Part shown: piece after piece, positions 9,446 through 29,917 of the stretch
Numbering within the stretch: position 1 is the stretch's first letter
Layout: each line of letters starts with the position of its first letter
Assembly (NCBI GenBank): GCA_016191015.1
Contig: JACPPM010000084.1
Coordinates: 1-49,958 of the forward strand
Direction: 5' to 3'
DNA from: Acidobacteriota bacterium
Lineage (GTDB): Bacteria; Acidobacteriota; CAIWXX01
DNA length: 49,958 nt
Program-made: the position numbers and the translations under genes
The notes under the pieces: generated by a model
The model's input: the letters and a program-made list of their open reading frames with translations, nothing else
Told to the model about the DNA's origin: nothing
Databases searched by the model: none

Positions 9446-9465
9446 CGATCCCTCCAGCGCGAATC

Positions 9466-11712: not shown

Positions 11713-11877
11713 CTATCCTCCCTGCGGGGTGAGAAAACACGCATTCCCGCTTTTACCTTTATACGCGGGCCGCTCGAGCGAAGTTCCACGTCAAACCGAA
11801 TCCAGGAATGATGAAACAAAAGCCCGAGAGATCGTGTACGATACAGCGCGTTCGAAGTATTTGGCCGGGAGGAGAAG

Positions 11878-13929
11878 ATGAGAAAGACGCTGGGGTTGGG
11901 ATTTGCGACTGCTCTGCTCGTGAGCGCCACGGTTTCCGCCGAAACACATCCATTTTCCGTCCACGACATGCTCGCCATGGACCGCATTTCCGATCCGCGT
12001 GTGTCGCCGAGCGGCCAGTTGGTGGCGTTCACAGTGCGGGTCACCGATCTGGATGCCAACAAAGGGCGCACCGACATCTATCTCGCGTCGGTTGATGGAT
12101 CGTGGGTCCGGAGAATTACGACGAGCGATGCGAGCGACACGCAGGCGCGCTGGTCCCCCGACGGCCAGGCCCTCTACTTCGTCTCGACGCGGTCGGGATC
12201 CTCGCAGGTCTGGCGCATCGCGAGCGGCGGCGGCGAGGCCGAGCAGGTTACGAAGCTCCCGCTCGACGTCGATGCCCTCGAAGTTTCTCCCACCGGCAAG
12301 TTTCTTGTGATCGCGATGCCTGTTTTTCCAGGCAAGAGCGTGGACGAGACAAAGGCTGCGATGGACGAGAAAGAAAAGACGAAGGCGACCGGCATGCTCT
12401 TCGATCACCTCTTCGTCCGCCACTGGGATACGTGGGCTGACGGAACGCGCAACCATATCTTCGCCTACGACCTCACTGCCGGCAAAGCAACCGATCTGAT
12501 GCCCGCTATGGACGCAGACTGCCCCGGGAAACCATTCGGCGGCAGCGAGGATTTTTCAATCTCGCCGGACGGCAAGACGATCGTTTTTTCGGCGAGGGAC
12601 GCCGGACGCGAAGAAGCTTGGTCTACCAACCTTGATATCTTCAGCGTTCCGAGCGACGCGAGCGCTGCGCCAACGAAGCTGACGACGAACCCGGCTACGG
12701 ACGCCCAACCGCGGTTCTCTCCCGACGGCGCGACGCTCGCCTATCTCGCCATGGACCGCGCGGGGTACGAAGCCGACCGATATCGCATCGTGCTTCGCGA
12801 TTGGGCGACCGGCTCCGAGCGGTCGATCGATCTCCGTGCTGACGCGACGCTGCGCGGCGACCGCTCGCCTGCGGAATACACGTGGTCTGCGGACAACAGG
12901 GAGATTTACTGCACAGCCGATCACATCGGCCAGCACTCGCTTTTCGCCGTGGACATTGCGAACGGCAAGGCGCGGATCGTCGTGAACGACGGCCAGATCG
13001 CGTCGCCGCAGCCGGTAACAGGCGGGCGCATTCTCTACAGCATGAACTCGCTGCTCGGCCCCGCCGAGCTCTATTCAATCGGCGCCGACGACAAGGACAT
13101 CAGATCAGTGACGACTCTCAACTCGGCCAAGGTCGCCTCAGCACGCTTCGGCAAGCCGGAACAGTTCAGCTTCAGAGGCGCCAAGGGCGACACGGTCTAC
13201 GGATACATCGTCCATCCTGCCGATTTCGATGCGACGAAGAAATATCCCGTTGCGTTCCTGATCCACGGCGGACCACAGGGGTCATTCGGCAATGATTTTC
13301 ACTACCGCTGGAACCCCCAGGCCTACGCGGGTGCCGGTTATGCCGCGGTGATGATCGATTTCCACGGCTCGACCGGTTACGGCCAGGCATTCACCGACGC
13401 GATCACCGGCGACTGGGGCGGGGCGCCCTACCAGGACTTGATGCTCGGACTCGATGCTGCCATCAAGAAGTATCCGTTCCTCGACGGCACGCGCGTCGGC
13501 GCGCTCGGTGCTTCCTTCGGCGGCTACATGGTCAACTGGGTTGCCGGCATGGCGCCCACCCGCTTCAAAGCTCTCGTCTGCCACGACGGGAACCTCGACG
13601 AGCGCATGGCCTACTTCGACACCGAGGAGCTCTGGTTCCCAGAGTGGGATCACGCCGGGATGCCGTGGACGAACCCTCTGGGGTACTCGAAGCATAACCC
13701 GATCGATCTCGTGAAGAACTGGAAGACCCCGATGCTCGTCGTCCACGGCGGCAAGGACTACCGCGTCGTCGATACCCAGGGATTGTCCACATTCAACGCG
13801 CTGCAGAGGCGCGGTATCCCGTCGAAACTGCTCTATTTCCCCGACGAGAACCACTGGGTGCTGAAGCCTCACAATTCGATTCTCTGGCACAACACCGTGA
13901 TCGGGTGGCTCGACCAGTGGCTGAAATAG
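11878..13929 (+). CDS. Secreted S9-family peptidase (prolyl oligopeptidase / acylaminoacyl-peptidase type)
   Basis: A 683-residue enzyme with a signal peptide (MRKTLGLGFATALLVSATVSAET). An N-terminal WD/TolB-like propeller shows repeated SPDG and SPTG units (for example RWSPDGQALYF). A C-terminal alpha/beta hydrolase domain follows. The catalytic serine is S546 in GASFGGYM, the aspartate D627 in HGGKDYRVV and the histidine H659 in DENHWV. Family members remove dipeptides or oligopeptides in the periplasm. A GGGAGGAG ribosome-binding site lies a few bases upstream of the ATG. It is divergent from the DUF5916 gene, with about 165 bases between them. Confidence 0.95.
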   Translation: MRKTLGLGFATALLVSATVSAETHPFSVHDMLAMDRISDPRVSPSGQLVAFTVRVTDLDANKGRTDIYLASVDGSWVRRITTSDASDTQARWSPDGQALYFVSTRSGSSQVWRIASGGGEAEQVTKLPLDVDALEVSPTGKFLVIAMPVFPGKSVDETKAAMDEKEKTKATGMLFDHLFVRHWDTWADGTRNHIFAYDLTAGKATDLMPAMDADCPGKPFGGSEDFSISPDGKTIVFSARDAGREEAWSTNLDIFSVPSDASAAPTKLTTNPATDAQPRFSPDGATLAYLAMDRAGYEADRYRIVLRDWATGSERSIDLRADATLRGDRSPAEYTWSADNREIYCTADHIGQHSLFAVDIANGKARIVVNDGQIASPQPVTGGRILYSMNSLLGPAELYSIGADDKDIRSVTTLNSAKVASARFGKPEQFSFRGAKGDTVYGYIVHPADFDATKKYPVAFLIHGGPQGSFGNDFHYRWNPQAYAGAGYAAVMIDFHGSTGYGQAFTDAITGDWGGAPYQDLMLGLDAAIKKYPFLDGTRVGALGASFGGYMVNWVAGMAPTRFKALVCHDGNLDERMAYFDTEELWFPEWDHAGMPWTNPLGYSKHNPIDLVKNWKTPMLVVHGGKDYRVVDTQGLSTFNALQRRGIPSKLLYFPDENHWVLKPHNSILWHNTVIGWLDQWLK

Positions 13930-14963: not shown

Positions 14964-15019
14964 CGGAGGATTTCAGGCTGCTTTGCGATCGAGGACGTCG
15001 TATGCCAGAGAGCGACGCG

Positions 15020-15152
15020 CGCCGACCCGAGAGGGAGGACGAGGTGGCGATTCGGTTGAATGCTGGAAGAATCTGCGTAGTCTGCGAAATCTGCGGTTTC
15101 GCCCGGACCGGACTCGCCCGAATCGGCGCCTCGACTTCGCGGCAGCCCTGCT
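15020..15152 (+). repeat. Dispersed repeat family A, copy 2
   Basis: About 130 bases are closely similar to 28925-29071: shared GCCGACCCGAGAG, TGCTGGAAGAATC, GTAGTCTGCG and GGCGCCTCGACTT blocks in the same order. This copy lacks the left arm that makes copy 3 a long inverted repeat. The rest of the 14964-15391 gap holds no gene that I can support. Confidence 0.65.
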
Positions 15153-15391
15153 TCATCCCCGAATTGACCATCGCAAGTGCTGCTGCTATCCTCCCGTCCG
15201 TGGAAAAGCCCGCTCAGCGGTGGCCGGACGATCCCCGTTGGGGGACTGGGTCCTCAGGGCCTCGTACGCCGTCAATCGCGATGAGTTGACGGTCCAGTCA
15301 GTGGTCCGGTTGTGGTCGCTGGCGCGGTTCAGAAAGGCGCGTGGCGTCCGCCTGTTCGAACGGAGATCTCGAGTGGCGTGATGGGGCGTGC

Positions 15392-17353
15392 ATGACGGTC
15401 CTCCGGGGACTCGCTAAAGCGACAAACGCTGTGCTGGGCCACCTCTGTCGGCTCCAGATCGTCCGCTCAGCCGAGATTGAAGCACTGCGGCGGCGGCATG
15501 AAACTCTTCTGAAGCCTACGTACCGTCCGTCGCGCATTCCCGATGATGCCGCTCGATACTTACGCCCCGACAACCCGAGGCTGATCGAGCTCAGACGAAG
15601 GTACCGCGACTCTCCCGCATCCCGGCTTGACCATTCGGTCTGGACGCGACAGCACGTGGATTGGGGGATCGATCTGCAGTTTTTCCGGGGAGACAACGCG
15701 TTCGTGCATCAAGTCCGGGGCGGATATGCTGAGGCCGCCTATCTCTTGACAGCCTCGTACGTACAGAATGCCGACAAGCTCGAGCTTCTGCGAGCGCTGG
15801 CCGAGGACGATCTTTTCGGAATCTATTCATTCAGTTTCAATGATCAGATGACCATCAGTCGAGACCTGCTCGATTCAATCCTCGAGATCAATTTTCTCGA
15901 GCAAGCGCTCGGCGTCTCGAATCAACCCGGAATCAACGTGCTCGACATCGGAGCCGGCTATGGCCGGTTCGCACACCGGCTCGTGACTGCGTTTCCTCAG
16001 ATGGGCAAGGTGTTTTGCACCGACGTCGTCCCGGAGTCGACCTTTATCGCCGAGTTCTATCTTCGCTATCGTGGCGTTGATCGGAGGGCGATCGTCGTGC
16101 CGGCAGATGAGATCGAAGCCCTGTTTGCGTCTGAGAAGATCGACCTGGCGGTGAATGTGCACAGCTTCTCCGAGTGCACGATGGCAGGCGTCTGCTGGTG
16201 GCTTGATCTGCTCCGAAGACATGCGGTTCGTCATCTGATGATCGTGCCGAACGCTGACGATCACGGGGGAGAGAGGCTTTTGACGACGGAGGGGGATGGC
16301 GCGCGTGTGGATTTTCGGCCTGCGTTGGAGTCCCGTGGCTACAGGCACGTCATCAAGCAGGCGAAGTACCTCGATTCCCGCGTCCAGGAGCATGGTGTCT
16401 CGCCGACGCAGCACTATCTGTTCGAGCTTCAGGCGAGGGGCCAAGCTGTTCTGCCCAGCTCCGACAATCCCTTGGTCTACGTCGTCGTGCTAAGCTGGAA
16501 CCGCTCTGCCACCACACTCAAATGTCTCGAATCCGCTACCCGCAGCCGCTATCCGAATGCTCGAGTGGTTGCAGTCGACAATGCTTCGACGGATGACACT
16601 GTGGAACGGATCCGGGAGGCGTTTCCTGATATCCCTCTCGTCGTAAACACGGCCAACCTTGGGTACGCCGAAGGCAACAACGTGGGAATACGGTACGCAC
16701 TGGAGCGAGGAGCCGAATACGTGCTGGTCCTCAACGATGACGTCGTCGTCGAGCCGGACGCCATCGGTTTCATGGTGGCGTCGGCGGATTCAGGCGTGGC
16801 CGCGGTCGGCTGCAAGGTGCGCGTCTTGGAGATGCCGGATCGTTTGTGGGCAGCCGGCAATCCCAATTTCGGGTGCGCTGAGCCTCTGCCGAAAGATGAC
16901 GGGCGATTCGACACACCTCGCGATCTGGACTACGCCGTCGGTTGTTGCATCCTCCTTCGGGCGAGTGTTCTTCGGGAGATCGGGCATTTCGACCCGGCGT
17001 ATTTCCTCGAGTTCGAAGAGGCTGACTGGTGTTCTCGTGCGCGGAAGGCGGGCCACAGGATTGTTTACGAACCACGAGCTGTGGTTTACCACAAGCAATC
17101 CGTGTCCTTCACCGGCAATCGTTCGCCCGCCTATCACTACCTCTTCGCGCGCAATCGGCTGCTCTTCTGGGAGCGTACCGATGTCATGGTCCGAGGGCGC
17201 CCCCGCGCGCTCTACGGGTTCTTCTCATGGCTGGCCGAGCTTCGGCTCATTCTGCGCACTGGGAGATCCAAGCTGCGACGCATTTCGGCCGCCTCGCGCG
17301 GAGTCGTCGACTATTTTCGCGGGCGCTTCGGGGCTCCGCCGCCAAACCTCTGA
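15392..17353 (+). CDS. Fusion of SAM methyltransferase and GT2 glycosyltransferase
   Basis: About 653 residues in two halves. The N-terminal half has the SAM-binding motif NVLDIGAGYGRFAHRLV near residue 183 and resembles putative sugar O-methyltransferases. The C-terminal half, from about residue 360, is a GT2 enzyme: VVVLSWNRSATTLKCLES, VVAVDNASTDDT, the metal-binding LNDDVVV, and FDPAYFLEFEEADWCSRAR as seen in rhamnosyltransferase-like proteins. An in-frame start at 15341 is possible; neither has a strong ribosome-binding site. As the first gene of the glycan locus it could add and methylate a terminal sugar. The family names follow from sequence; the capping role is inference. Confidence 0.85.
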   Translation: MTVLRGLAKATNAVLGHLCRLQIVRSAEIEALRRRHETLLKPTYRPSRIPDDAARYLRPDNPRLIELRRRYRDSPASRLDHSVWTRQHVDWGIDLQFFRGDNAFVHQVRGGYAEAAYLLTASYVQNADKLELLRALAEDDLFGIYSFSFNDQMTISRDLLDSILEINFLEQALGVSNQPGINVLDIGAGYGRFAHRLVTAFPQMGKVFCTDVVPESTFIAEFYLRYRGVDRRAIVVPADEIEALFASEKIDLAVNVHSFSECTMAGVCWWLDLLRRHAVRHLMIVPNADDHGGERLLTTEGDGARVDFRPALESRGYRHVIKQAKYLDSRVQEHGVSPTQHYLFELQARGQAVLPSSDNPLVYVVVLSWNRSATTLKCLESATRSRYPNARVVAVDNASTDDTVERIREAFPDIPLVVNTANLGYAEGNNVGIRYALERGAEYVLVLNDDVVVEPDAIGFMVASADSGVAAVGCKVRVLEMPDRLWAAGNPNFGCAEPLPKDDGRFDTPRDLDYAVGCCILLRASVLREIGHFDPAYFLEFEEADWCSRARKAGHRIVYEPRAVVYHKQSVSFTGNRSPAYHYLFARNRLLFWERTDVMVRGRPRALYGFFSWLAELRLILRTGRSKLRRISAASRGVVDYFRGRFGAPPPNL

Positions 17354-17651: not shown

Positions 17652-18914
17652 ATGACCCGAATGAATCCGAGAACCTTCATGCTCGTCAACGGATCATGCC
17701 ATCGGCGCCAGGAGGAAATCGCCGTGGTCAGGAGATTCCTCCTTCTGAACGAATGGAGCGAGGACGACAATGTCGACCGCGCCGACCTGGTCATACTCTT
17801 TGCCTGTGGCGCGTTTCGTCTCAATGTCGATGAGATGGCGCTGAAGATCACCGACATTTGTAGCAGGCTCAAGCACGGCGCAGAGCTCCTCGTCGGTGGC
17901 TGCTTGCCACTCACTGATCGCGAGAACTTGAAGAAGATTTTCACCGGAAAGACGATCACATACACCGATTGCGCCGCGCTCGATATGCTCCCTGGCGCTG
18001 AAAGACGGTTCGAAACACTGCCCAAGGTATACGGCGACCACGCATCCTGCCCGCCGCTCGTCGTTCCGGGCCTGCCAAAGGTACGCACTCTCCGCCTGAA
18101 CAAGCTGCCGTTGAGGCTCACGCGGCGATTGCTGCGCTACTTGCCGACACCGCCGCTGAGGAAAATCGTTTCCAGGCTCAGGGGAGACGAGCGGATGGAA
18201 ATCAGCATCGCCGCCGGCTGTTCACGAACGTGCCCTTATTGTGCGAAGAGATTCGCCCGCGGCAGCGTGAGGAGCAAGCCGGTCGATCTCATCCTGCAGC
18301 GAATCGCCGAAGGGACAATGCAGGGGTACCAGAGATTCGATCTCTATGCCGATTCAATCGGCGACTACGGGCAGGATCTGGGCACCGACTTCGGGACGCT
18401 CCTCGACAAGATCGCAGACTGCGACGCACACATCAGCATCGGAATCCACGATCTCCATCCCCAGGACTTCGTTCGGTACTACGAGAGAATCATCGGCTTG
18501 TGCGCGGCGGGCAAGGTGCATTTCCTCTACGTCATCACAGAATCGGGGAATGAACGGGTCCTGGAATCAATGCATCGAGGGATCGATACCTTCGATCTGG
18601 TTCAAAAGCTCCTGGCCGTTCGCACCTACAAGGGCGTCTTCCTACAGACAGCCATCATTGTGGGATACCCGGGCGAAGCGGATCACGAGTTCGAGGACAC
18701 TGTGGCTCTCCTCAACAAGGTCGATTTCGACACTGTGTACGTCCATTGTTATTGTGACATGCCGAATACGGAATCCTCCCGGCTCGACGGCAAGATCTCC
18801 CATGAGACCATGTCGAGACGACTACGCCAGATAGCCGCTGCCGGAATCAAACACAGCGTGAGCGAGGCCCGGCGCGAGTGCGATCACGCATTCGGGTCAG
18901 GCCCGATCGGGTGA
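17652..18914 (+). CDS. Methylthiotransferase-like radical SAM protein 1 (no TRAM domain)
   Basis: A 420-residue protein laid out like MiaB/RimO. The N-terminal domain keeps the three cysteines of the auxiliary 4Fe-4S cluster: C16 (NGSCHRRQEE), C52 (LFACGAFR) and C84 (VGGCLP). The radical SAM motif CSRTCPYC is C190/C194/C197. TESGNERVLESMHRG and VGYPGEADHEFEDT correspond to family motifs that read VQSG and GFPGET in the classic enzymes. The chain ends about 50 residues after that, with no TRAM RNA-binding domain. This argues against the tRNA or ribosomal S12 substrates of classic enzymes. The start at 17652 (or 17661) lacks a clear ribosome-binding site. It is the first of three tandem paralogues. 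Confidence 0.85.
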   Translation: MTRMNPRTFMLVNGSCHRRQEEIAVVRRFLLLNEWSEDDNVDRADLVILFACGAFRLNVDEMALKITDICSRLKHGAELLVGGCLPLTDRENLKKIFTGKTITYTDCAALDMLPGAERRFETLPKVYGDHASCPPLVVPGLPKVRTLRLNKLPLRLTRRLLRYLPTPPLRKIVSRLRGDERMEISIAAGCSRTCPYCAKRFARGSVRSKPVDLILQRIAEGTMQGYQRFDLYADSIGDYGQDLGTDFGTLLDKIADCDAHISIGIHDLHPQDFVRYYERIIGLCAAGKVHFLYVITESGNERVLESMHRGIDTFDLVQKLLAVRTYKGVFLQTAIIVGYPGEADHEFEDTVALLNKVDFDTVYVHCYCDMPNTESSRLDGKISHETMSRRLRQIAAAGIKHSVSEARRECDHAFGSGPIG

Positions 18915-18976
18915 TTGATGTGGAACAGCGTTCCAAGAGACCAGTCACGGTCCCGCCGCTCTGCTCTGGAGGGCAC

Positions 18977-20218
18977 ATGAGGTCCTTTCACCTTCTTGAC
19001 AAATCGTGCGATCGCCGGCGGGAGGAAGTATCCATGGTGCGAAGGTTCTTCCTCGTGAACGGCTGGACAGAGGCCGCCAGCGAAGAGAAGGCGGACTGTG
19101 TCATTCTGTTCACCTGCGCGGAAATGCGGTACAAAGTGGTCAACATGACCAAGGAAGTGGAGAGGCTCTCGGGTCGGATCGCTCCGAATTCGGAATTGAT
19201 TGTGGGAAGTTGCTTACCGAAGACCAACAAGGAGGCCCTGGCCAAGGTATTTCAGGGCCGGACAATCACTCCCACCGATTTCAGCGCACTCAACGCCCTG
19301 CCCGACATCACGATCAAGATCGAGGACATGCCGCCGATCTTCGGCAGGAATGCTGCGTTCGAGCCCTTCGACGAGCGACGTCCTCGGGGTGGTGGAGACA
19401 TCACCGCGCTGTCCAGGCTCTCACACTGGGCCTCCGGATTCGTGCATCGCCACTTTCCCATCCCTGGCTCGCAAGACATGGCGGCACGGCTCGCACGAAC
19501 CAGGCGAATGGTCATCTATGTTTCTGCCGGCTGTGCCAAGAACTGCTCCTATTGTGCAATCCGTTTTGCTACTGGGCAGGTCAGGAGCAAGCCGCTGGAC
19601 CTGGTGATGCAGAATATCTCCGAAGGACTCCGCCTGGGATACGGAGCTTTTGACCTTCTTTCCGACTCGATCGGCGGGTACGGCCTGGATCTGGGCACGA
19701 GCCTTGGCGAGCTCTTCGATCGAGTTCTGGCTCATCCCGGCCAGTTCACGGTCGCGATTTCCGATCTGCATCCCCAGGAGCTCATCAGATATTTCGGAAA
19801 GATTCTGTCCTTGTGCCAGGCCGGCAGGATTCATTACCTTTACGTGCCGGTCCAATCCGGAAACGAGCGGATTCTGCGAATGATGAATCGTCCGTGCGAC
19901 GTGAAAGATCTCACGAACAAGCTCATGGCGATACGGAGTTTTGGCGGGGTCTTCTTGCGGACGGGCATCATGGTGGGATTTCCCGGGGAGACAGAGGCGG
20001 AGTTTGAGGAGAGTCTTGTCTTCTTGAAGACTATTGGATTCGATGACGTATTCGTGCACTACTACTGCGATATGCCGAACACCCACTCATCAACCCTGCC
20101 CGGTAAGCTGGACAAGGCCACCATGGCGGAGCGACTGAACAAGGTGAACCGTTCAGGCATCAGATACTGCGTCGAGGCCACTCGTCACGAGTGGGAAAGC
20201 AATCTTGTGATTTCATGA
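18977..20218 (+). CDS. Methylthiotransferase-like radical SAM protein 2 (no TRAM domain)
   Basis: A 413-residue paralogue of its neighbours. Auxiliary-cluster cysteines are C11 (DKSCDRRREE), C47 (LFTCAEMR) and C79 (VGSCLP). The radical SAM cluster motif CAKNCSYC is C186/C190/C193. PVQSGNERILRMMNRP and VGFPGETEAEFEES are close to MiaB-family signatures. The C-terminus stops without a TRAM domain. The ATG at 18977 was preferred over an upstream GTG at 18878 because GGAGGG lies just before it and because the alignment with the paralogues starts there. It begins 62 bases after gene 1 and overlaps gene 3 by four bases. The substrate is unknown. Confidence 0.87.
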   Translation: MRSFHLLDKSCDRRREEVSMVRRFFLVNGWTEAASEEKADCVILFTCAEMRYKVVNMTKEVERLSGRIAPNSELIVGSCLPKTNKEALAKVFQGRTITPTDFSALNALPDITIKIEDMPPIFGRNAAFEPFDERRPRGGGDITALSRLSHWASGFVHRHFPIPGSQDMAARLARTRRMVIYVSAGCAKNCSYCAIRFATGQVRSKPLDLVMQNISEGLRLGYGAFDLLSDSIGGYGLDLGTSLGELFDRVLAHPGQFTVAISDLHPQELIRYFGKILSLCQAGRIHYLYVPVQSGNERILRMMNRPCDVKDLTNKLMAIRSFGGVFLRTGIMVGFPGETEAEFEESLVFLKTIGFDDVFVHYYCDMPNTHSSTLPGKLDKATMAERLNKVNRSGIRYCVEATRHEWESNLVIS

Positions 20219-21456
20219 GCATGGAATTCCTGATCGTCGGCAAAGCGTGCGGTCACCGTCGAGAAGAAATATCGATGGTAAGGAAGTTCCTTCTGTCGAA
20301 CGATTGGAACGAGGCGAGACGATTGCGCAGCGCAGATTTGGTGGTCTTCTTCGCGTGCGCAGGGGTCCGCTATATCGTGGACGAGAATGTGAAGAAGATC
20401 GTAGAAACCAACGAAAAGATGAAGCCCGGCGCCGAGTTGATCGTCGGAAGCTGTCTGCCGGCGATGGACAACGAAAGCTTACGAAGGGGGTTCAGAGGGA
20501 GAACGATCACTCCGACGGATTTTACCGCCTTGAATGATCTTCCCAACATCAAGGTACGGATCGAAGCGATGCCCAAGATGTGGGGGAGTGAAGCTGAATG
20601 CCAGCAGATCAACAGACCTCGGCTGATTGCCGCTGCGCGGATGTGGGCTGAGGACGCTGCCGCTGAGTGCATCAAGTTTGTCATTGAGAAGCGGCCCAGC
20701 CGGTTTCTGAAGCGCACCGCCTTCGAGCTCAAGAAGCGCAGCACTGTTGGGTTTTCAATCGCCGCAGGGTGCCCGGGAAAATGTTCCTATTGTGCGAGGC
20801 CTGCCGCGAGTGGAAGAGTACGGAGCAAGCCGCTGGATGTGGTCGTGGAGAATATCCGCAAGGGACTCAGCTTAGGCTACAGAGGGTTTGATCTATACGC
20901 GGACTCCATCGGCGCCTATGGCTCGGATCTCAACGTCAATTTTGGGGACTTGTTGGATCGAATCATGGAGATCGACGAGCGTTTCAGCATCGGTCTATTC
21001 GACCTTCATCCGCACCATTTCATCAGGTTTTTTGACCCGATCAAACGTCTGAGTCAAGCGGGGAAGCTCCATTTCCTCTATGTCGCCGTGCAATCGGGAA
21101 ACGATCGGATTTTGAAACTGATGAGGCGGGCATGCGACGTGGAGGAACTGGCCACCAAGCTGGCCGAGATACGCCGGTACGAGCAGGTATTCATGCAGTC
21201 GGGCATTATCGCGGGGTTTCCCGGGGAGACGGATGAGGAGTTTGAGGATACACTCCGGCTGTTGAAGAGGATCAACTTTGACAATGTCTATGTTCATTGC
21301 TACTGCGACATGCCGCATACCGAAGCGTCCCGTCTGCCGACCAAGGTGGACAGGGATGCAATGTACCGCCGGCTTTTCGCAATCAAGCGCGCGGGCATCC
21401 ATCATCTCGCTGCCGAGACCGAACATGAGTGGGAGACGACTCCGTTTCCCTGTTGA
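20215..21456 (+). CDS. Methylthiotransferase-like radical SAM protein 3 (no TRAM domain)
   Basis: A 413-residue third paralogue. Auxiliary cysteines are C12 (GKACGHRREE), C48 (FFACAGVR) and C80 (VGSCLP). The radical SAM motif CPGKCSYC is C186/C190/C193. AVQSGNDRILKLMRRA and AGFPGETDEEFEDT are conserved. All three paralogues share YCDMPxTxxSxL near the end, where MiaB-type proteins have a proline-rich RPGT segment before TRAM. ATGA overlap with gene 2 implies coupled translation; the ATG at 20221 is an alternative start. The linker between the two cysteine-rich domains (~115-175) differs strongly among the three, suggesting different substrates or partners. Confidence 0.87.
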   Translation: MSMEFLIVGKACGHRREEISMVRKFLLSNDWNEARRLRSADLVVFFACAGVRYIVDENVKKIVETNEKMKPGAELIVGSCLPAMDNESLRRGFRGRTITPTDFTALNDLPNIKVRIEAMPKMWGSEAECQQINRPRLIAAARMWAEDAAAECIKFVIEKRPSRFLKRTAFELKKRSTVGFSIAAGCPGKCSYCARPAASGRVRSKPLDVVVENIRKGLSLGYRGFDLYADSIGAYGSDLNVNFGDLLDRIMEIDERFSIGLFDLHPHHFIRFFDPIKRLSQAGKLHFLYVAVQSGNDRILKLMRRACDVEELATKLAEIRRYEQVFMQSGIIAGFPGETDEEFEDTLRLLKRINFDNVYVHCYCDMPHTEASRLPTKVDRDAMYRRLFAIKRAGIHHLAAETEHEWETTPFPC

Positions 21457-21498: not shown

Positions 21499-22548
21499 GT
21501 GGGTGAATCGGGCTCACCCCCATTCATGAGCGTCGTCATCCCGACGCATAATCGCCTCGTTCACTTGAAGCACACGCTAGGCTGCCTCGAAGCGCAGCAC
21601 TATCCGGCCGGTTCGTACGAAGTGATCGTCGTCGATGACGGTTCTGATGACGAAACAGCGGGCTACCTGCGCGAGCTCGCGGGCGCGGGCCGTGTGCGCC
21701 TCGTGTCCCAGGCGCACGCTGGCCCCGGGGCCGCGCGCAATGCCGGGGTGAGGCTCGCGCGTGGGGAAGTTATTGCGCTCACGGATGATGATTGCCTTCC
21801 GGATCCCGAGTGGTTGGCCGCCCTAGCGGCAAGCTACACGTGCGCGGACGGCACTCCGCGTCTGGCTGTCGGAGGCCGGGTCGAAGAGAAGATCATCGAC
21901 GGCCACTGGCTGCAGAGGTTCTACGCTTGTCGCGCCGAACGGCAGCAGGCACGGGCTCCCGGTGACCTCGGCCTACTGGATTCCGCAAATGCCGCCTGCG
22001 ATCGTTCGACACTCCTGTCTGTCGGAGGTTTTCCGGAGATCCTCCCATTTCCCGGTCTTGAGGACATGGGTCTCAGTTTTCGATTGAAGGATGCGGGGTG
22101 CGAGATTCGCGCTAATCCCGATGCCGTTGTGTGGCACACGAACCGCACGAGTTTCAGCTCGATGATACGACAGGCGTTTGATCGAGGGCGAGGGGCCGGC
22201 GTGCTGATGCTGGAATACCCGCAGCACTTCGAAGACTCCCGGAGCGCGCGGCTGTGTGGGCGAGCACAGCAGAGGCTGGGTCGGTTGATCGCGCGTCTTC
22301 CTCGACCGATTCGGCCGCTTGCCGGCGCGTTCGTCGCATCAGCCGCCCATCTCCCCTTCGCCATTCTCCGATTCGGAATCTGGATTGGTCGCACTCTTCC
22401 CGCTCGCGCCTCCCACTACCGGCGGACGGCCGAATCGAGCCCGCGGTTTGTCTTCTATCTGTGTCTCGACTCGCTCTATTATGTCCTCTACCTGGCCGGT
22501 CAGGTGGCCGGCACCTTCGAACACGTCAGGAAGAGGTCGATAGAGTGA
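21499..22548 (+). CDS. GT2 family glycosyltransferase
   Basis: A 349-residue GT-A fold transferase. It shows SVVIPTHNR, the nucleotide-binding VIVVDDGSDDET, the metal-binding LTDDDCLPDP and a late ED motif (FPGLEDMGLSFRLKDAG). A hydrophobic C-terminal part (~265-340) may associate with the membrane. The donor sugar cannot be told from sequence. The start is GTG at 21499, by analogy with the remnant at 17356, although an ATG at 21526 lies close to the conserved SVVIPT block. Its stop overlaps the GT4 start by four bases (GTGA). Confidence 0.9.
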   Translation: MGESGSPPFMSVVIPTHNRLVHLKHTLGCLEAQHYPAGSYEVIVVDDGSDDETAGYLRELAGAGRVRLVSQAHAGPGAARNAGVRLARGEVIALTDDDCLPDPEWLAALAASYTCADGTPRLAVGGRVEEKIIDGHWLQRFYACRAERQQARAPGDLGLLDSANAACDRSTLLSVGGFPEILPFPGLEDMGLSFRLKDAGCEIRANPDAVVWHTNRTSFSSMIRQAFDRGRGAGVLMLEYPQHFEDSRSARLCGRAQQRLGRLIARLPRPIRPLAGAFVASAAHLPFAILRFGIWIGRTLPARASHYRRTAESSPRFVFYLCLDSLYYVLYLAGQVAGTFEHVRKRSIE

Positions 22549-23834
22549 AGATCTTGTACGTGGCCGGCGACTTCCCGGCCGAACCTCTGAACGGATGCCA
22601 CTGGTTCGCCTACAATCTGATCAATTACGTGGCTCGGTCCCACGAATGCCATCTGATCAGCCCTGGCGTACCGGGACAGATCGCACGCGCCCGCGAGTGG
22701 GAGCGATCCCTTCCGAACCTGCGCGTGATCGATGTTTCTCCACGTCAGCACCCCCACCTGGTGCGGGTGGCGAAAGCCACGAACTACTTCACCGATTTCC
22801 GGCTCCCCCGGCTCGTGCAGTGGATGACGCCCGGATTTACTCAGGCCATCCGAAGGGCGATTCGGGATATCTCCTACGATGTCGTCCATTTCACCGACAT
22901 CACTCTCGTTTACTATCGCGACCTTGTCGGCCGGTTGCCCGTTGTCATTTCCGGGCCTGATCCCGCCTCGCTGCACCTTCAGAGAAACATCCTGTTCGAA
23001 ACGTCGCTTCCAAAGCGTCTGAAGCTCGCGGTGACTGCGCGGGCCTATCGCAACATCGAACGGGCTCATCTACAGACGTTTTCGGAGGTTCACGTCGTCT
23101 CTGCGTCCGATGGTGAATATTTGAGACGAAACGCGGGGCTGGAAAACGTCTCAGTCATCAATCATGCCGTGGACCCGCGGTTCTTCGCACACCCTCTCGA
23201 ACGAGAGCCCAGCACTCCGGGAGTCACACTCTTCAGTTCGGGGACCTTCTCGGTGCCATTCGTCCGGAGGCCTTTCATGAGCTTCTTCGACACGCACTGG
23301 GAGAGCATTCGGCAGGCTCACCCGTTGACTCGTTGGATCGTTGTCGGTCCCGGAGCTCCGCCCGACGCGAAGAGACGCCTCACACACGCCGCGGGCGTGG
23401 AGTACTACGAATGGATCAATGATTATGACGGCGCGCTCGCGCGATCCGACATCGCCCTTTTTCTCGATGGCAGCGGGACGGGCATGAAGACCAGGGTGCT
23501 TCAGGCCATGGCCGCCGGGAAGGCCGTCATCGGCACCCCGTTCGCGTTCGGAGGAATCGACATTGTGCATGGCGTCCACGGTTTCTTGGCTGACGAGCAT
23601 GCATCCGTGTTGGCGGCGATCGGCGCGCTGCTCGAGTCGCCTCAACTGCGACGAGATATAGGCCAGGCCGCCAGGGACTTGGTTCGTGCGAGCTTTACCT
23701 TGGAGATCACGGGTCGGAGCTGGGAGGCTCTCTACGAGCGCGTGTCGCGGCAGTGCCGGGCGAGCTCCGAGATGGTGCCGCTCCAGCCAGGAGAGAACAG
23801 GGATAGCGCTGAGGTCTTGAATGGACGCTCTTGA
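22545..23834 (+). CDS. GT4 family glycosyltransferase
   Basis: A 429-residue GT-B fold protein starting VKILYVAGDFPAEPLNG. The C-terminal donor-binding region contains GSGTGMKTRVLQAMAAGKAV near residue 308, followed by TPFAFGGI. The usual E(x7)E motif is weak. The GTG start at 22545 overlaps the stop of the GT2 gene. The 3' end overlaps the Wzm gene by 14 bases, so the block from 21499 to 25956 reads as one transcription unit. It presumably adds a sugar to the exported chain at the cytoplasmic face. Confidence 0.85.
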   Translation: MKILYVAGDFPAEPLNGCHWFAYNLINYVARSHECHLISPGVPGQIARAREWERSLPNLRVIDVSPRQHPHLVRVAKATNYFTDFRLPRLVQWMTPGFTQAIRRAIRDISYDVVHFTDITLVYYRDLVGRLPVVISGPDPASLHLQRNILFETSLPKRLKLAVTARAYRNIERAHLQTFSEVHVVSASDGEYLRRNAGLENVSVINHAVDPRFFAHPLEREPSTPGVTLFSSGTFSVPFVRRPFMSFFDTHWESIRQAHPLTRWIVVGPGAPPDAKRRLTHAAGVEYYEWINDYDGALARSDIALFLDGSGTGMKTRVLQAMAAGKAVIGTPFAFGGIDIVHGVHGFLADEHASVLAAIGALLESPQLRRDIGQAARDLVRASFTLEITGRSWEALYERVSRQCRASSEMVPLQPGENRDSAEVLNGRS

Positions 23835-24681
23835 GGGTGTTGGGGAGAGAGATCCGCACGCGGGCGCGGCTCACGTGCACGTCGAGCCCAGCCGGGGTTG
23901 GATTGCGCTGAAGCCGGGTGAGTTGTGGGAGTACAGGGAACTGCTCTACTTCCTCACATTGCGCGACATCAAAGTCCGGTACAAGCAGACAGCGTTGGGC
24001 GCGGCCTGGGCGATCATTCAGCCGTTCTTCACCATGCTGGTATTCAGCCTGTTCTTCGGCAGGCTGGCGGGCGTGCCGTCCGACGGCGTCCCCTACCCCA
24101 TATTCGCCTACGTCGCCCTGCTGCCCTGGAACTACTTCGCTGGCTCGCTGGGACTGTCGGCCACGAGCGTGGTCAGCAGCGCGAATCTCATCAAGAAGGT
24201 GTACTTCCCGCGCCTCGTCGTACCGATCTCGGGAGTCCTGTCAGGCCTCCTTGATTTCGCAATCGCCTCTGTGGTGCTTCTGATGATGATGGCGTATTAC
24301 GGAATCAGGCCGACTGCCGCGACGCTCCTCCTGCCTGGGTTCCTTCTCCTGGCGCTCGTCACAGCTCTGGGGATCGGGATGTGGCTCTCGGCTCTGAACG
24401 TCGAATTCCGGGATGTGCGTCATGCCGTGCCGTTCTTGACGCAATTCTGGATGTTTGCGACACCTGTGGCCTATCCGAGCAGCCTGCTCAGCGAGCCGTG
24501 GCGCTCCCTCTACGGCCTGAATCCGATGGTCGGCGTTGTCGAGGGATTCAGGTGGGCGCTTCTGGGCACAACCCCACCCGGGACCATGCTGGCGCTCTCG
24601 GTTCTCATCAGCGTGCTGATATTCGTGAGCGGCGCATACTATTTCCGGCGCATGGAAAAAACATTCGCCGATCTGGTGTGA
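23821..24681 (+). CDS. wzm: ABC-2 polysaccharide export permease (Wzm/TagG-like)
   Basis: A 286-residue permease. The N-terminal amphipathic stretch (LWEYRELLYFLTLRDIKVRYKQ) is typical of Wzm/TagG. Six hydrophobic segments follow from residue 60, with FRDVRHAVPFLTQFW before the last pair. With the adjacent ATPase it moves lipid-linked polysaccharide across the inner membrane after chain synthesis is complete. The start codon lies inside the 3' end of the GT4 gene. Confidence 0.92.
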   Translation: MDALEGVGERDPHAGAAHVHVEPSRGWIALKPGELWEYRELLYFLTLRDIKVRYKQTALGAAWAIIQPFFTMLVFSLFFGRLAGVPSDGVPYPIFAYVALLPWNYFAGSLGLSATSVVSSANLIKKVYFPRLVVPISGVLSGLLDFAIASVVLLMMMAYYGIRPTAATLLLPGFLLLALVTALGIGMWLSALNVEFRDVRHAVPFLTQFWMFATPVAYPSSLLSEPWRSLYGLNPMVGVVEGFRWALLGTTPPGTMLALSVLISVLIFVSGAYYFRRMEKTFADLV

Positions 24682-24687: not shown

Positions 24688-25956
24688 ATGGGCGACACTG
24701 TGGTCCGGGTCGAGAACCTCGGCAAGCGATATCGAATCGGGGAACGACAGGCGCCGTACAAGACGCTGCGGGAGGCGCTTCATCGTGCGACGGCGAAACC
24801 GTGGCGCGTGGCCCGTTCGCTATGGGGCAGGGGGGATGGTGAGGCACGGCAGGATGAGATCTGGGCTCTCAGAGGTGTGTCGTTCGAAGTGAAGCGAGGA
24901 GAGGTCGTCGGCATCATCGGGCGCAATGGCGCGGGCAAGAGCACGCTGCTCAAGATCCTCTCCCGCATCACGGAGCCGACGGAGGGCTGCGCTGATCTCT
25001 ACGGCCGGGTTGGTTCGTTCCTCGAGGTCGGCGCCGGGTTCCATCCAGAATTGACCGGCAGGGAAAACGTCTTCCTCAACGGCGCTATCCTGGGGATGAA
25101 GAAAGCGGAGATCGAGCGGAAGTTTGATGAGATCGTCGCATTCGCCGAGATTGACAGATTCATCGACACACCGGTGAAGCACTACTCCAGCGGCATGCAC
25201 GTGCGACTGGCTTTCGCTGTCGCCGCCCACATGGAGCCCGAGATCCTGATGGTCGATGAGGTCCTGGCCGTCGGCGATCTCGCCTTCCAGAAGAAGTGCA
25301 TCGGGAAGATGGGGGACGTGGCGAGGGGCGGTCGGACCGTCCTGTTCGTCAGCCACAACATGGTAGCGACCGCGGGACTTTGCGATTGGGGAATCGTGTT
25401 GGATGGAGGTCATGTCGCATGCACGGGATCGATCTCAGACGCGATTTCATACTACACGGCTCAATCGTCGTCGCCCGAAGAGGCTGCCGCATCGATCGAT
25501 GACGTCGATCGGAATGGATTCCAGCTCCTCCATCATCTGGGGCGCGCCCAGATTGAGTGCCGCACGCCGATCCGTTTCACCTTCGAGATAGCCTGCCCTT
25601 TTGCGGTCCGAAATGCCACTGCCGGAATCATCCTCTCCGACGCCTTTGACAACCCCGTTTTGGGGACGAGCAGCAAGCTCCAACAGGTGCACGGGTCGGC
25701 GGCGAGCAAGCGTTGGCAGGTGACCTGTGATCTGGGAAATGTCCCGCTCAACAGTGGCTTCTACCATGTCTCCGTCTCGTTCGGAGACGAGTACAGGGAT
25801 CATGCCCGTTTCGAGCGAGCCATCTCCTTCGTCGTCTTGCCGGGCGATCCATTCGGATTCGGCCTCAAAGTACCCAGGAGATGGGGTCACTTCTACTGGA
25901 GCGCCGATTGGGGAATCGCCGCGGTGGATGAGCCCCGCCCATCCTCTAGCCGTTAG
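24688..25956 (+). CDS. wzt: ABC exporter ATPase with C-terminal cargo-binding domain (Wzt-like)
   Basis: A 422-residue protein. The ATPase domain has Walker A GRNGAGKST, signature YSSGMHVRLAFAV, Walker B EILMVDEVLAVGD and the switch histidine in FVSHN. From about residue 265 an additional beta-rich domain (RTPIRFTFEIAC, TAGIILSDAFDNPVLG, SGFYHVSVSFGDE) matches the Wzt C-terminal domain. In studied systems this domain recognises a chemical cap on the finished glycan. Its presence suggests that this glycan too carries a terminal modification, for which the methyltransferase fusion and the radical SAM proteins are candidates. Confidence 0.92.
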   Translation: MGDTVVRVENLGKRYRIGERQAPYKTLREALHRATAKPWRVARSLWGRGDGEARQDEIWALRGVSFEVKRGEVVGIIGRNGAGKSTLLKILSRITEPTEGCADLYGRVGSFLEVGAGFHPELTGRENVFLNGAILGMKKAEIERKFDEIVAFAEIDRFIDTPVKHYSSGMHVRLAFAVAAHMEPEILMVDEVLAVGDLAFQKKCIGKMGDVARGGRTVLFVSHNMVATAGLCDWGIVLDGGHVACTGSISDAISYYTAQSSSPEEAAASIDDVDRNGFQLLHHLGRAQIECRTPIRFTFEIACPFAVRNATAGIILSDAFDNPVLGTSSKLQQVHGSAASKRWQVTCDLGNVPLNSGFYHVSVSFGDEYRDHARFERAISFVVLPGDPFGFGLKVPRRWGHFYWSADWGIAAVDEPRPSSSR

Positions 25957-26630: not shown

Positions 26631-27809
26631 ATGAGCCGGGCCGGCTTCCTCTGGGATTCTCTGAGCAACAACACCGGCGACCAGGCCGTCGGGCTGACGC
26701 TGATGCGGCTGGCGCGGCGCGCCGGGATGCAAGGGCTCGAACCAGTGTCGATTGGTGAGTCGCTTGCGGAGCGCTACGAGCTCCTGGTCATCGGCGGCGG
26801 CGAGCTGCTCCACCCACCGGGCCACCCCTTCTACGACCTCTTCCGCGTCCCCGGCGAGCACGTGCTCAACACCGTGGGCACGTACGGCGAGGTCGAGGCG
26901 AGCTATCTCTCGTCGTATCGGCTGATCACGGTGCGCTCGGCGGCCGACCGCGACAATCTGCGCGGGCTCGCGCGTGAGGCCCGGGTCGCTCCCTGCCTGA
27001 GCGTCCTGTTCGGAGAGATCGCCGAGGACCGGCCGGTGATGATGGGGCAGGACCCACTCTTGCTGCACCTGCATGCGGGGGTGTTCCTGCCGGGCACCGC
27101 CTCAGCGCTCGTCTCGCTTCTGCGCCGGTTGGAGCCCCCCGTCGCCATGCTGCCATTCACCCACCACAACTGCGACGGGGCCCTGCAAGCCGTCCTCGCC
27201 GCAGCCGCCGGCCTCCCGGCGCCCCTCGAGGTCGCCGGCCCGGACCAGGCGTTCGCCGCCATCCGGCGGGCGCGGGCGGTGATTGTCACGTCGCTGCACG
27301 CCGCGATCTTCGCGTACGTCGCGGGAGTGCCGTTCCTGGCGATGCCCTATTCGCCGAAGGTGCGGCACTTTCTGGCCGAGCGGGGACTCGAGCGACGGCT
27401 GCTCCCGGACATCCAGCGCCTGCCCGAGAAGCTCCATCTCCTTACCGCCGGCAGCGTCGACTGGCAGTCGAAGCTCGCAACGGATGTGGCGGCCGCGCGC
27501 GCGACCGCCACTGAGATCCTCGGCCTGGTCGAGGAGACACTGGCGCGGCCGGACGGTAGCCGGGTCGGGCTGGTTCACTGGACCGAGCCGACGCACCCTG
27601 AGCAGGCGCACGCGCAGGCGATCGGCCGCCACGCCGACTACGGTCGCCGCATGGCCCAGGTCGCGTCGGATGAGCTTGCCGGCCGGCACGCGTGGCGGCG
27701 ATCGATCGCCTCGGCTGCCAGAATTTTGGCAAGATCCTTCCCCGCGATCCGACGGCTCGGTTGGGCACGGGCGTTGTGGCGGCGATGGACGGGCGCATAC
27801 GGCATCTGA
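26631..27809 (+). CDS. Polysaccharide pyruvyltransferase-family protein
   Basis: A 392-residue GT-B-like protein. The N-terminal DSLSNNTGDQAVGLTLMRLARR and VIGGGELLH match the family (N.GD.A and GGG motifs). ITVRSAADRDNL corresponds to the RD block, and VTSLHAAIFAYVAGVPFLAMPYS to the C-terminal SLHA motif. Family members transfer pyruvate from phosphoenolpyruvate to sugar hydroxyls, though some act as glycosyltransferases. It probably decorates the surface polysaccharide or LPS. It lies 31 bases before the Kdo hydroxylase and is separated from the export locus by repeats. Confidence 0.8.
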   Translation: MSRAGFLWDSLSNNTGDQAVGLTLMRLARRAGMQGLEPVSIGESLAERYELLVIGGGELLHPPGHPFYDLFRVPGEHVLNTVGTYGEVEASYLSSYRLITVRSAADRDNLRGLAREARVAPCLSVLFGEIAEDRPVMMGQDPLLLHLHAGVFLPGTASALVSLLRRLEPPVAMLPFTHHNCDGALQAVLAAAAGLPAPLEVAGPDQAFAAIRRARAVIVTSLHAAIFAYVAGVPFLAMPYSPKVRHFLAERGLERRLLPDIQRLPEKLHLLTAGSVDWQSKLATDVAAARATATEILGLVEETLARPDGSRVGLVHWTEPTHPEQAHAQAIGRHADYGRRMAQVASDELAGRHAWRRSIASAARILARSFPAIRRLGWARALWRRWTGAYGI

Positions 27810-27840
27810 GGGAGGCGCCCGCGTGGAGCAGGAGAGCCAC

Positions 27841-28719
27841 ATGACGCAGACCGCCACGTCCGCTCTCCCGCTCGACGAACGTCTTGAGCGCGGCGAGCTT
27901 GTCGTTTTCGAGCGCTGTCCGTTCGCACTGCCCGCCGGCGAAGACCTCCGCTTCCTGCTCGCGCGCGAGCTCGACGGTGTCTCGAAGTCCATCACGCTTT
28001 TCCCCGCCTCAGGCCTGATGGGAGGCCATCGCCCCGAGTCGCGGGCCGAGGTGGCGCGCCTCAAAGGACTGCTCGCCGAATTCAACCGCGAAGCTACGGC
28101 CTGGCTGGCGCGCGCGCTGCCCCGCTACCACGCGGCGATGCGGCTCGGCCCCCTGCGCTTCCGGAATGTCGAAGAGCGCGGGCGGAACTACGATCCACGC
28201 CTCACCGGCGCTCTGCTTCACGTCGACGCCAACAGCGACCAGGCGGCCCTCGGGGACAGCTTCCTGCGCGTTTTCGTGAACATCAACCCCGAGCAGGTGC
28301 GTGAGTGGGTGACCTCAGAACAGCTCCCGGCGCTCCTCGACCGCTGGGGCGACCGCGTGCGCGAGCCGGGCGAGGGAGCGCCGGCGATGCCCACGCGGTT
28401 GCGCCTGCGCCTGGGCCGCGCACTCGGCATCGGGTTGCCCGCTGAGACCTCCTACGACCGCCTGATGATGCGCCTGCACTTCTTCGGCAAGACCGATCCA
28501 TACCTGCAGGAGCAGGCGCCGAAGACAAGGTGGGTCTTTCAGCCCGGATCGGCCTGGCTTGTCTTCTCGGACATCGTCAGCCACGCGGTGGTGAGCGGAC
28601 GGTACGCGATCGATCAGACCTACCTGACGCCCGCCGAAAGCTTCCGCGATATCGAACGCTCGGCCCGTGCAGCGATCGAGCGCTTCTGGGCAGGAAAGAC
28701 GGCGACGCTGCCGATTTGA
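27841..28719 (+). CDS. kdoO: Kdo hydroxylase-family dioxygenase
   Basis: A 292-residue Fe(II)/2-oxoglutarate-type oxygenase of the Kdo_hydroxy family. The HxD iron ligands are H127 and D129 (LHVDANSD), followed by FLRVFVNINPEQVREW. The distal histidine is about H248 (DIVSHAVVSGRYAIDQTYL), with the nearby arginine placed to bind 2-oxoglutarate. Characterised members hydroxylate Kdo of the LPS inner core to Ko, making it more acid-stable. The start at 27841 is backed by GGAG upstream and removes a long spurious extension that overlaps the preceding gene. The presence of this gene is good evidence for a Kdo-containing LPS. Confidence 0.85.
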   Translation: MTQTATSALPLDERLERGELVVFERCPFALPAGEDLRFLLARELDGVSKSITLFPASGLMGGHRPESRAEVARLKGLLAEFNREATAWLARALPRYHAAMRLGPLRFRNVEERGRNYDPRLTGALLHVDANSDQAALGDSFLRVFVNINPEQVREWVTSEQLPALLDRWGDRVREPGEGAPAMPTRLRLRLGRALGIGLPAETSYDRLMMRLHFFGKTDPYLQEQAPKTRWVFQPGSAWLVFSDIVSHAVVSGRYAIDQTYLTPAESFRDIERSARAAIERFWAGKTATLPI

Positions 28720-28875: not shown

Positions 28876-29071
28876 GAAACCGCAGATTTCACAGATTGAC
28901 TCGCAGATGTCGCCGATTGCTTCGCGCCGACCCGAGAGTGAGGAGCAAGTTGCTCGTCGGTTGATTGCTGGAAGAATCGGCGTAGTCTGCGTGGAAATCT
29001 GCGCCATCTGCGGCTTCGCACGGAACGGCCTCGCCCGAGTCGGCGCCTCGACTTTGCCGCAGCCCTGCGTC
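28876..29071. repeat. Dispersed inverted-repeat element family A, copy 3
   Basis: This is the longest copy. The left arm at 28876-28918 (ACCGCAGATTTCACAGATT, then CGCAGATGTCGCCGATT) is mirrored by 28975-29014 (AATCGGCG, AGTCTGCG, AAATCTGCG, CATCTGCGG). From 28925 it aligns with copy 2 at 15020-15152. The surrounding gap, 28720-29085, has no supportable gene. Confidence 0.65.
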
Positions 29072-29085
29072 ACGAGTGAGCGAGC

Positions 29086-29147: not shown

Positions 29148-29384
29148 ATGAAAACCGTCACCGCCGCCGAGGCGAACCGCCGTTTCTCGAGCGTCCTGCG
29201 TGAAGCCGCTCGGGGCGAGGTCATCACCGTGGTGTCACGGGGCAGGCCTGTCGCAACCATCGGCCCTGTTCAGGCCGACCGCTCCTCGCGCAAGTCGGCC
29301 AAGGCCGCGCTCCTCAAACGGCTTCGGACTCAGCCCGTCGCGGGGCGGCGCACCTGGACCCGCGAAGAGCTCTACCAGCGCTGA
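29148..29384 (+). CDS. Phd/YefM-type antitoxin
   Basis: A 78-residue protein with the family pattern KTVTAAEANRRFSSVLREAARGEVITVVSRGRPVATIGP. This N-terminal part binds DNA and dimerises. The basic C-terminus (LRTQPVAGRRTWTREELYQR) would wrap the toxin active site. Two bases separate its stop from the toxin GTG. The operator immediately upstream suits conditional repression by the complex. Confidence 0.88.
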   Translation: MKTVTAAEANRRFSSVLREAARGEVITVVSRGRPVATIGPVQADRSSRKSAKAALLKRLRTQPVAGRRTWTREELYQR

Positions 29385-29386
29385 CG

Positions 29387-29848: not shown

Positions 29849-29854
29849 CTACGT

Positions 29855-29917
29855 GAAGGATCTCCGCCAGGACCTGTAGCCCAGGCTGGAGATCCTTCGT
29901 CACCGGGCTACGCCCGG
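29855..29917. repeat. Double-hairpin intergenic element (family C)
   Basis: Perfect 11-base arms GAAGGATCTCC (29855-29865) and GGAGATCCTTC (29888-29898) enclose 22 bases. A second hairpin CCGGGC-TAC-GCCCGG follows at 29903-29917. It starts six bases after the toxin stop, so it could end or stabilise the transcript. There is no T-run, so a simple intrinsic terminator is unlikely. Confidence 0.55.

Follow-up and report, generated by a model that had tools for sequence, protein, structure and literature searches.

All characterised methylthiotransferases, among them those of the MiaB, MtaB and RimO types, have tRNA or ribosomal protein S12 as their substrate, and their auxiliary cysteines follow the motif C-X35-36-C-X32-33-C (PMC5352715). 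RimO has a TRAM domain yet acts on a protein (PMC5352715), and the specificity of methylthiotransferases is set by all three of their domains (PMC10702137). The enzyme that makes methylthio-F430 is still to be found (PMC10702137). Here we analyse three methylthiotransferase-like radical SAM proteins (rSAM A, B and C) that end before TRAM. Their genes lie in a 49,958-nucleotide stretch of an Acidobacteriota genome (the window), within the following locus:

15341..17353, + strand, putative NanM-like sugar O-methyltransferase fused to a GT2 glycosyltransferase (PF00535 E 1.6e-21; TIGR04371 NanM 58 bits, cut-off 44); the in-frame ATG near 15392 may be the start
17652..18914, + strand, rSAM A, UPF0004 and radical SAM domains without TRAM, 420 aa, ATG start at 17652
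18977..20218, + strand, rSAM B, UPF0004 and radical SAM domains without TRAM, 413 aa, ATG start at 18977
20215..21456, + strand, rSAM C, UPF0004 and radical SAM domains without TRAM, 413 aa, ATG start at 20215
21499..22548, + strand, GT2 glycosyltransferase (PF00535 E 9e-26); alternative ATG at 21526
22539..23834, + strand, GT4 glycosyltransferase (PF13692 E 1.7e-12; TIGR03087 70 bits); GTG start a few codons inside the interval
23821..24681, + strand, Wzm-like ABC exporter permease (PF01061, ABC2_membrane, E 5.6e-22)
24688..25956, + strand, Wzt-like ATPase with a Wzt_C carbohydrate-binding domain (PF00005 E 4.5e-22; PF14524 34.7 bits)
26631..27809, + strand, polysaccharide pyruvyl transferase-like protein (PF04230 E 3.4e-10)
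27796..28719, + strand, Kdo hydroxylase-like protein (PF11004 E 2.5e-57); likely ATG near 27841

An ABC2 permease and a Wzt_C-bearing ATPase are thus found among glycosyltransferase genes (PF01061, PF00005, PF14524, PF00535 and PF13692), as in a Wzm/Wzt export locus, and the domain matches place the trio between glycosyltransferases and upstream of Wzm/Wzt, where the original prediction had put it. The top NCBIfam model for the permease is galactan_ABC_perm, matched below its cut-off, and the Kdo hydroxylase-like gene suggests that the locus is linked to LPS. We rejected a RiPP locus, since the gaps hold only unconvincing short frames as a precursor, an absence that is weak evidence. A defence system was also rejected, as PADLOC gave only a 21-bit partial match of rSAM C to PDC-M51A, and so was a composite mobile unit built from the 145-bp repeats on either side of the locus, which are dispersed across the genome. 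Promoters and terminators were about as frequent as expected by chance.

The three reading frames are open and free of internal stops, and the proteins share 45–47% pairwise identity. The stop of rSAM B overlaps the start of rSAM C (ATGA at 20215–20218), while rSAM A and B are separated by a gap of 62 nt, with a GGAGGG ribosome-binding-like site preceding rSAM B. Only B and C are therefore plainly coupled, and the proposal that the whole trio is translationally linked holds for this pair and was slightly overstated for A and B.

All three proteins match Radical_SAM (PF04055) above the cut-off, with E values of 9e-13 to 1e-19. For UPF0004 (PF00919) the scores of A, B and C are 24.9, 29.5 and 22.6 bits against a cut-off of 27, and the fold match of the predicted structure to MiaB/RimO supports the presence of this domain. 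The trio reaches 171, 179 and 183 bits with TIGR00089 (cut-off 251) and 109–161 bits with the MiaB, MtaB and RimO family models (cut-offs 355–357), in each case below the threshold. The auxiliary cysteines C12, C48 and C80 and the CxxxCxxC motif at 186/190/193 (rSAM C numbering) are invariant across the trio. The radical SAM motifs read CSRTCPYC, CAKNCSYC and CPGKCSYC, and the auxiliary cysteines are spaced C-X35-C-X31-C, a three-cysteine motif whose second spacer is one residue under the published one. All three auxiliary cysteines are also present in every aligned TRAM-less sequence. That all six signature cysteines (three of the auxiliary cluster and three of the radical SAM motif) and a PGE-type motif persist at 45–47% identity is consistent with purifying selection.

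A Pfam search found no TRAM match in A, B or C, whereas the same type of search detected TRAM in the MiaB and RimO of the same genome. The trio extends for about 20 residues beyond the end of the matched core, compared with about 57–85 in ordinary methylthiotransferases. A pseudogene or frameshift as the cause was rejected, because the frames are intact and the 62-nt A–B gap and the B–C overlap are too small for a remnant. The AF2 model of rSAM C (pLDDT 85.8, pTM 0.84) likewise ends without TRAM, and its nearest Foldseek matches are MtaB, MiaB and RimO structures (E 3e-24 to 1e-21, TM ~0.7). The tandem of intact methylthiotransferase-like genes, the retained cysteines of both clusters, the end before TRAM and the MiaB/RimO-type fold all agree with what had been predicted.

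Three positions set the trio apart. The first is a near-invariant Asn following the first auxiliary cysteine (58/58 ordinary sequences), which is replaced by Arg (N14R). The Asn preceding the second auxiliary cysteine (58/59) is Phe (N45F), and the TTD motif has Ala or Gly in place of its Asp (55/59; D329G/A). The trio may therefore catalyse a reaction other than methylthiolation.

In our careful tree, whose sampling left the e-MtaB and B12-binding cousins outside, the TRAM-less sequences form one side of a branch with UFBoot/SH-aLRT support of 100/100 that recurs in all 200 bootstrap trees. A, B and C form a clade of their own (100/99), and the TRAM-less clade is separate from those of MiaB, RimO and MtaB, of which ordinary copies are encoded elsewhere in the trio's genome. 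This is the position outside the ordinary tRNA-modifying clades that had been expected, and the finding that would have spoken against it, an ordinary clade with no glycan link, was not obtained. The branch apparently has no existing name, and a literature search for TRAM-less methylthiotransferases found no papers. The clade also occurs in other genomes of the same phylum and in phages, two of whose sequences (L206 and L208) sit on very long branches, so that the function in phages need not apply to the trio. The trio genes are absent from the other genome of the window's class, which comprises two genomes, and no such genes were found in the class of genome G016. Among the matches listed, a plasmid search returned only ordinary methylthiotransferases (20–28% identity), and a pattern scan of genome contigs says little about the reach of the clade, as its matches were mostly ordinary methylthiotransferases too.

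We surveyed gene neighbourhoods with glycan-gene models. Among loci with at least 12 kb of readable sequence, glycan genes lie near 4 of 5 TRAM-less loci, which come from three genomes only, and near 0 of 56 ordinary methylthiotransferase loci, a comparison made with models that were partly seeded from the tested loci and are of modest sensitivity (in the E. coli waa cluster they gave waaG only). The 16 ordinary loci from the same phylum had no glycan genes at E 1e-8. Glycosyltransferase densities of 80 in 6.43 Mb, 72 in 5.0 Mb and 35 in 2.4 Mb lead us to expect ~0.2–0.26 glycosyltransferases per 18 kb, and hence a chance of about 0.01 for 4 of 5. In another genome, a sulfotransferase gene ends in an ATGA overlap with the relative L173:9742-10998, which lies beside a GT4 gene and a second sulfotransferase. 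L172 adjoins GT4 and flippase genes and L170 adjoins sugar transferase and O-antigen ligase genes; in both the glycan genes are convergent and thus not co-transcribed. No glycan genes were found in the neighbourhood of L174, or in the short or one-sided loci of L135, L136, L171 and L175. The phage relatives adjoin terminase/portal, replication or tail genes. The anticipated recurrence of glycan genes beside relatives is therefore seen in part, and other relatives, including those in phages, occupy unrelated contexts. Given the glycan-free and the phage members, it would be unsafe to extend a glycan substrate to every member of the clade.

The separate TRAM-less branch and its glycan setting suggest that the target of sulfur insertion may be other than RNA. 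The prediction of a non-classic substrate, which drew on TRAM loss and the glycan setting, is thus partly supported; its argument from TRAM loss does not carry by itself, because RimO has TRAM and modifies a protein and all three domains contribute to specificity, so that absence of TRAM does not exclude RNA. Tentatively, we favour MiaB/RimO-type chemistry (C-H to C-SCH3) by the trio, each enzyme serving one site on the exported glycan or on a precursor of it. The trio would then consist of catalytically complete radical SAM enzymes with a methylthiotransferase fold, the products of tandem duplication within a locus for a glycan that is exported by an ABC system and probably linked to LPS. By analogy to RimO and MiaB, one SAM would methylate a sulfide on an auxiliary [4Fe-4S] cluster, bound by the three N-terminal cysteines, and another SAM, at the CxxxCxxC cluster, would yield a 5'-deoxyadenosyl radical. 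This radical would take hydrogen from an unactivated substrate carbon, and the resulting carbon radical would pick up SCH3. The likeliest substrate would be the growing glycan or a precursor linked to a nucleotide or lipid, modified at the cytoplasmic face before export by Wzm/Wzt, and each paralogue may act at its own position. It is doubtful that a TRAM-less branch of methylthiotransferases works on a surface glycan or precursor by inserting methylthio groups at unactivated C-H bonds, with three paralogues serving three sites.

The enzymes might instead perform other radical chemistry on a glycan sugar (dehydration, epimerisation, dehydrogenation or formation of a C-S linkage), using the auxiliary cluster for electron transfer or substrate binding. 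We consider this somewhat unlikely. Sugar-modifying radical SAM enzymes are known (AprD4, NeoN, BtrN and DesII), and AprD4, a diol dehydratase acting on an aminoglycoside, is among the more distant fold matches (ranks 13–14). The N14R, N45F and D329G/A replacements point the same way. However, the sulfur-donating auxiliary-cluster cysteines are kept in all aligned TRAM-less sequences, and the top fold and sequence matches are methylthiotransferases. A protein or peptide substrate, such as a glycosylated surface protein or a small peptide, is rather unlikely, even though RimO offers a precedent and the packaging, replication and tail settings of the phage relatives fit a protein better: L225 lies between terminase and portal genes, and L227 in a baseplate/tail-fibre module with three further radical SAM genes. 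L135, moreover, is two genes away from an ABC exporter. Against this, the trio lies among glycan genes only, the gaps of its locus hold no convincing precursor peptide gene, and L206 and L208 are very long branches.

That the trio modifies tRNA or rRNA without TRAM, the glycan setting being incidental, strikes us as improbable. Position A37 of tRNA is the target of the nearest characterised relatives, specificity does not depend mainly on TRAM (PMC10702137), and the predicted pI of 8.2–8.7 makes the proteins mildly basic; but the genome already has MiaB and MtaB, and here three divergent additional copies sit in a glycan operon and have relatives repeatedly found near glycan genes. It is highly improbable that the genes are passengers or decaying, travelling with the locus without current function. 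Their GC content of 55–58%, slightly below the ~60–63% of the flanking glycan genes, and their absence from the single sister-family genome suggest lateral gain, whereas the intact frames, the catalytic cysteines kept in three copies at 45–47% identity and a GC3 of 69–73%, similar to that of the adjacent glycosyltransferase genes, speak against decay.

With a TRAM-less clade beside glycan genes, sulfotransferase genes and structural genes of phages, methylthiotransferase chemistry would reach new substrates. Sulfur-bearing surface sugars would gain a route that can be tested, compact enzymes would become available for inserting sulfur at C-H bonds, and with three diverged tandem paralogues site selectivity is directly testable.

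MiaB and MtaB (TIGR01574, TIGR01579) share with the trio the three-cysteine UPF0004-type N-terminal domain, the radical SAM core and the fold (TM ~0.67–0.71). The trio, in contrast, is without TRAM, forms a separate clade, scores far under the cut-offs, has changed Asn residues by the auxiliary cysteines and lies in a glycan setting. RimO (TIGR01125; PDB 4jc0), the top phmmer match among solved structures (E 1e-30), has the same domains apart from TRAM; the trio, however, falls outside the RimO clade, an S12-type substrate is not indicated, and the genome has its own RimO. The methyl-coenzyme M reductase glutamine methylase MgmA (TIGR04014; PDB 9ccb) has a related radical SAM core and appears at fold rank 9, but it is a weaker match than the methylthiotransferases and at the sequence level covers the core only. 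ABC-dependent O-antigen export loci share the permease, the Wzt_C ATPase, the glycosyltransferases and the methyltransferase–glycosyltransferase fusion, and differ from the present locus in its three radical SAM genes. We know of no described Wzm/Wzt O-antigen locus with three such genes. The sulfur of methylthioxylose is introduced by a non-radical route with genes unrelated to the trio, and methylthiotransferase-type radical SAM enzymes are not known to take part. This sugar, carried by mycobacterial lipoarabinomannan (PMC10503756), is a natural methylthio sugar on a surface glycan. Thus, the methylthio decoration of a surface sugar, which had been thought new, has a precedent (PMC10503756), and what would be new is a radical SAM route to it on a glycan.

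The window is one complete contig (C23) of a 6.43-Mb genome and contains three intact radical SAM frames, arranged head to tail:

17652-18914, radical SAM gene A
18977-20218, radical SAM gene B
20215-21456, radical SAM gene C

B and C overlap by ATGA, but A and B lie 62 nt apart; the translational linkage originally predicted for all three is plain for B/C only. The proteins share 45-47% pairwise identity, and domain searches find in each a radical SAM domain together with a diverged UPF0004 match, above the 27-bit cut-off in B (29.5 bits) and below it in A (24.9) and C (22.6), but not TRAM, the C-terminal domain of ordinary methylthiotransferases (MiaB, MtaB and RimO). Against TIGR00089, the general NCBIfam methylthiotransferase model, they score 171-183 bits (cut-off 251), and they fall far below the respective cut-offs of the NCBIfam MiaB, MtaB and RimO models. 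The three auxiliary cysteines (C-X35-C-X31-C) and CxxxCxxC, which the three proteins had been said to keep, are indeed invariant in their alignment. Protein C (20215-21456) also has a weak partial PADLOC match (21 bits) to the phage-defence candidate PDC-M51A.

TRAM is truly absent from the trio, as claimed. The Pfam domain is found in the genome's own MiaB and RimO, whereas its MtaB misses the Pfam threshold despite a long tail, which makes tail length the sounder test. About 20 residues follow the matched core in the trio, compared to about 57-85 in ordinary methylthiotransferases. AlphaFold models protein C (pLDDT 85.8, pTM 0.84; input alignment of window proteins and a limited set of loci) as an N-terminal domain followed by the radical SAM core, after which the chain stops. 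Foldseek places MtaB, MiaB and RimO at the top (E 3e-24 to 1e-21, TM ~0.7), MgmA next and AprD4 further down. Since the genome encodes MtaB (contig C201; 339 bits, slightly below the 357-bit cut-off), MiaB (C128) and RimO (C19) elsewhere, the trio is an addition rather than the housekeeping set. In the quick tree this MiaB pairs with its counterpart from an Acidobacteria gp6 genome (SH-aLRT 94), which makes Acidobacteriota the probable phylum.

In a careful IQ-TREE analysis (48 rows; core columns only, TRAM excluded), the branch that divides 14 TRAM-less proteins from every ordinary one has 100/100 support and is present in 100% of 200 bootstrap trees. The trio forms its own clade (100/99), outside MiaB, MtaB and RimO in a tree built without the archaeal/eukaryotic e-MtaB group or the B12-binding cousins. 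The exact placement of two phage rows is unsure, as their branches are very long; the 11-row TRAM-less split of the earlier, quick tree (70 rows) is independent of them. The residue after the first auxiliary cysteine is Asn in 58/58 ordinary rows and Arg in most TRAM-less ones (CPRR or CxRR, not CxxN). The trio additionally has Phe in place of Asn before the second auxiliary cysteine and lacks the Asp of the TTD motif. The lack of TRAM extends beyond the Arg signature, as three TRAM-less rows (L135, L136 and L142) have Asn at this position like the ordinary enzymes.

Domain searches confirm that the trio lies among glycosyltransferase genes, upstream of Wzm/Wzt:

upstream, one protein that combines NanM-like sugar O-methyltransferase and GT2 domains
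downstream, GT2, GT4, Wzm, Wzt with Wzt_C, a pyruvyltransferase-like protein and Kdo hydroxylase

From its gene content, this looks like a locus for an ABC-exported, LPS-linked glycan. In E. coli O8/O9a, Wzt_C reads a terminal methyl cap, and by analogy the glycan may end in such a cap. The GC content of the Kdo hydroxylase (27796-28719) and pyruvyltransferase-like (26631-27809) genes is 68-71%, compared to 55-63% in the remaining locus, hinting at a mosaic origin. Direct repeats of 140-150 bp (15018-15155 and 28923-29072; ~80-87% identical) bracket the locus; since the element is also scattered through the genome (L176, L177, L178), the bracketing may be chance. Just downstream (29148-30973), Phd-like antitoxin and PIN-domain-like toxin frames apparently form two toxin-antitoxin pairs, as judged by eye.

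The trio was not found in the one other genome of its class (a sample of two). A search of 396 genomes of the phylum ranked two further TRAM-less proteins, in genomes G380 and G210, above ordinary ones, and in the class to which G380 belongs a refined profile detected others (in G428 and G471, three in G403, plus a partial protein in G423). Their neighbourhoods include:

L173 (G403), sulfotransferase gene whose end overlaps the radical SAM start; GT4 and a second sulfotransferase adjoining
L172 (G403), GT4, polysaccharide flippase and PMT-type genes converging on the radical SAM gene; same-strand acyl-CoA carboxylase-like genes before it
L170 (G428), convergent with a sugar transferase and O-antigen ligase

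No glycan genes were found near L174 (G403), nor seen in the short or one-sided loci L135, L136, L171 and L175. Among loci with at least 12 kb of sequence (five, from three genomes), four of five TRAM-less loci have glycan neighbours, compared to 0/56 ordinary loci, by home-made models of modest sensitivity, some seeded from the loci under test; 16 same-phylum ordinary loci gave one weak, distant match (E 6e-6). The L170 GT4 match (E 5e-77) is independent of the seeding. By Pfam counts per genome, an independent yardstick, ~0.2-0.26 glycosyltransferases are expected per 18 kb, at which density four of five has a chance probability of ~0.01. The link between the TRAM-less clade and glycan genes is suggestive, not proven.

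What might the trio do? In RimO/MiaB the auxiliary cluster on three cysteines carries sulfur, which a first SAM methylates, while a second generates the radical (PMC5352715). Because all ligands for this chemistry are retained, C-H methylthiolation is the likeliest reaction, and we tentatively favour it together with the glycan or its precursor as the substrate. Other radical chemistry on the sugar is less likely but a real rival. So is a protein substrate, which ranks slightly lower and draws on TRAM-less relatives in phages, whose settings also argue against a single substrate class for the whole clade. In L225 (IMGVR_UViG_3300036985_004199; 3867-5060) such a gene, without a PHROG family match, is directly flanked by the genes for the terminase large subunit and the portal. 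In the large phage L227 (IMGVR_UViG_3300035182_000466; 8260-13209) four adjacent radical SAM genes, which may modify tail proteins, lie in a baseplate/tail-fibre module; one is TRAM-less and methylthiotransferase-like, and L228 and L235 show this match too. A 354-aa TRAM-less methylthiotransferase-like protein is encoded in L224 (IMGVR_UViG_3300009034_000096; 9998-11062), between endolysin-type peptidase and SNF2/DnaB/primase genes.

The original prediction read TRAM loss, along with the glycan setting, as suggesting a substrate other than tRNA or S12. The loss stands, but taken alone it is a weak argument against RNA, since RimO bears TRAM and yet modifies a protein, specificity being set across all domains (PMC10702137). 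As to novelty, we found no paper on TRAM-less methylthiotransferases in the open-access literature; methylthio decoration of a surface glycan, however, is not new, as shown by the methylthioxylose of lipoarabinomannan (PMC10503756).
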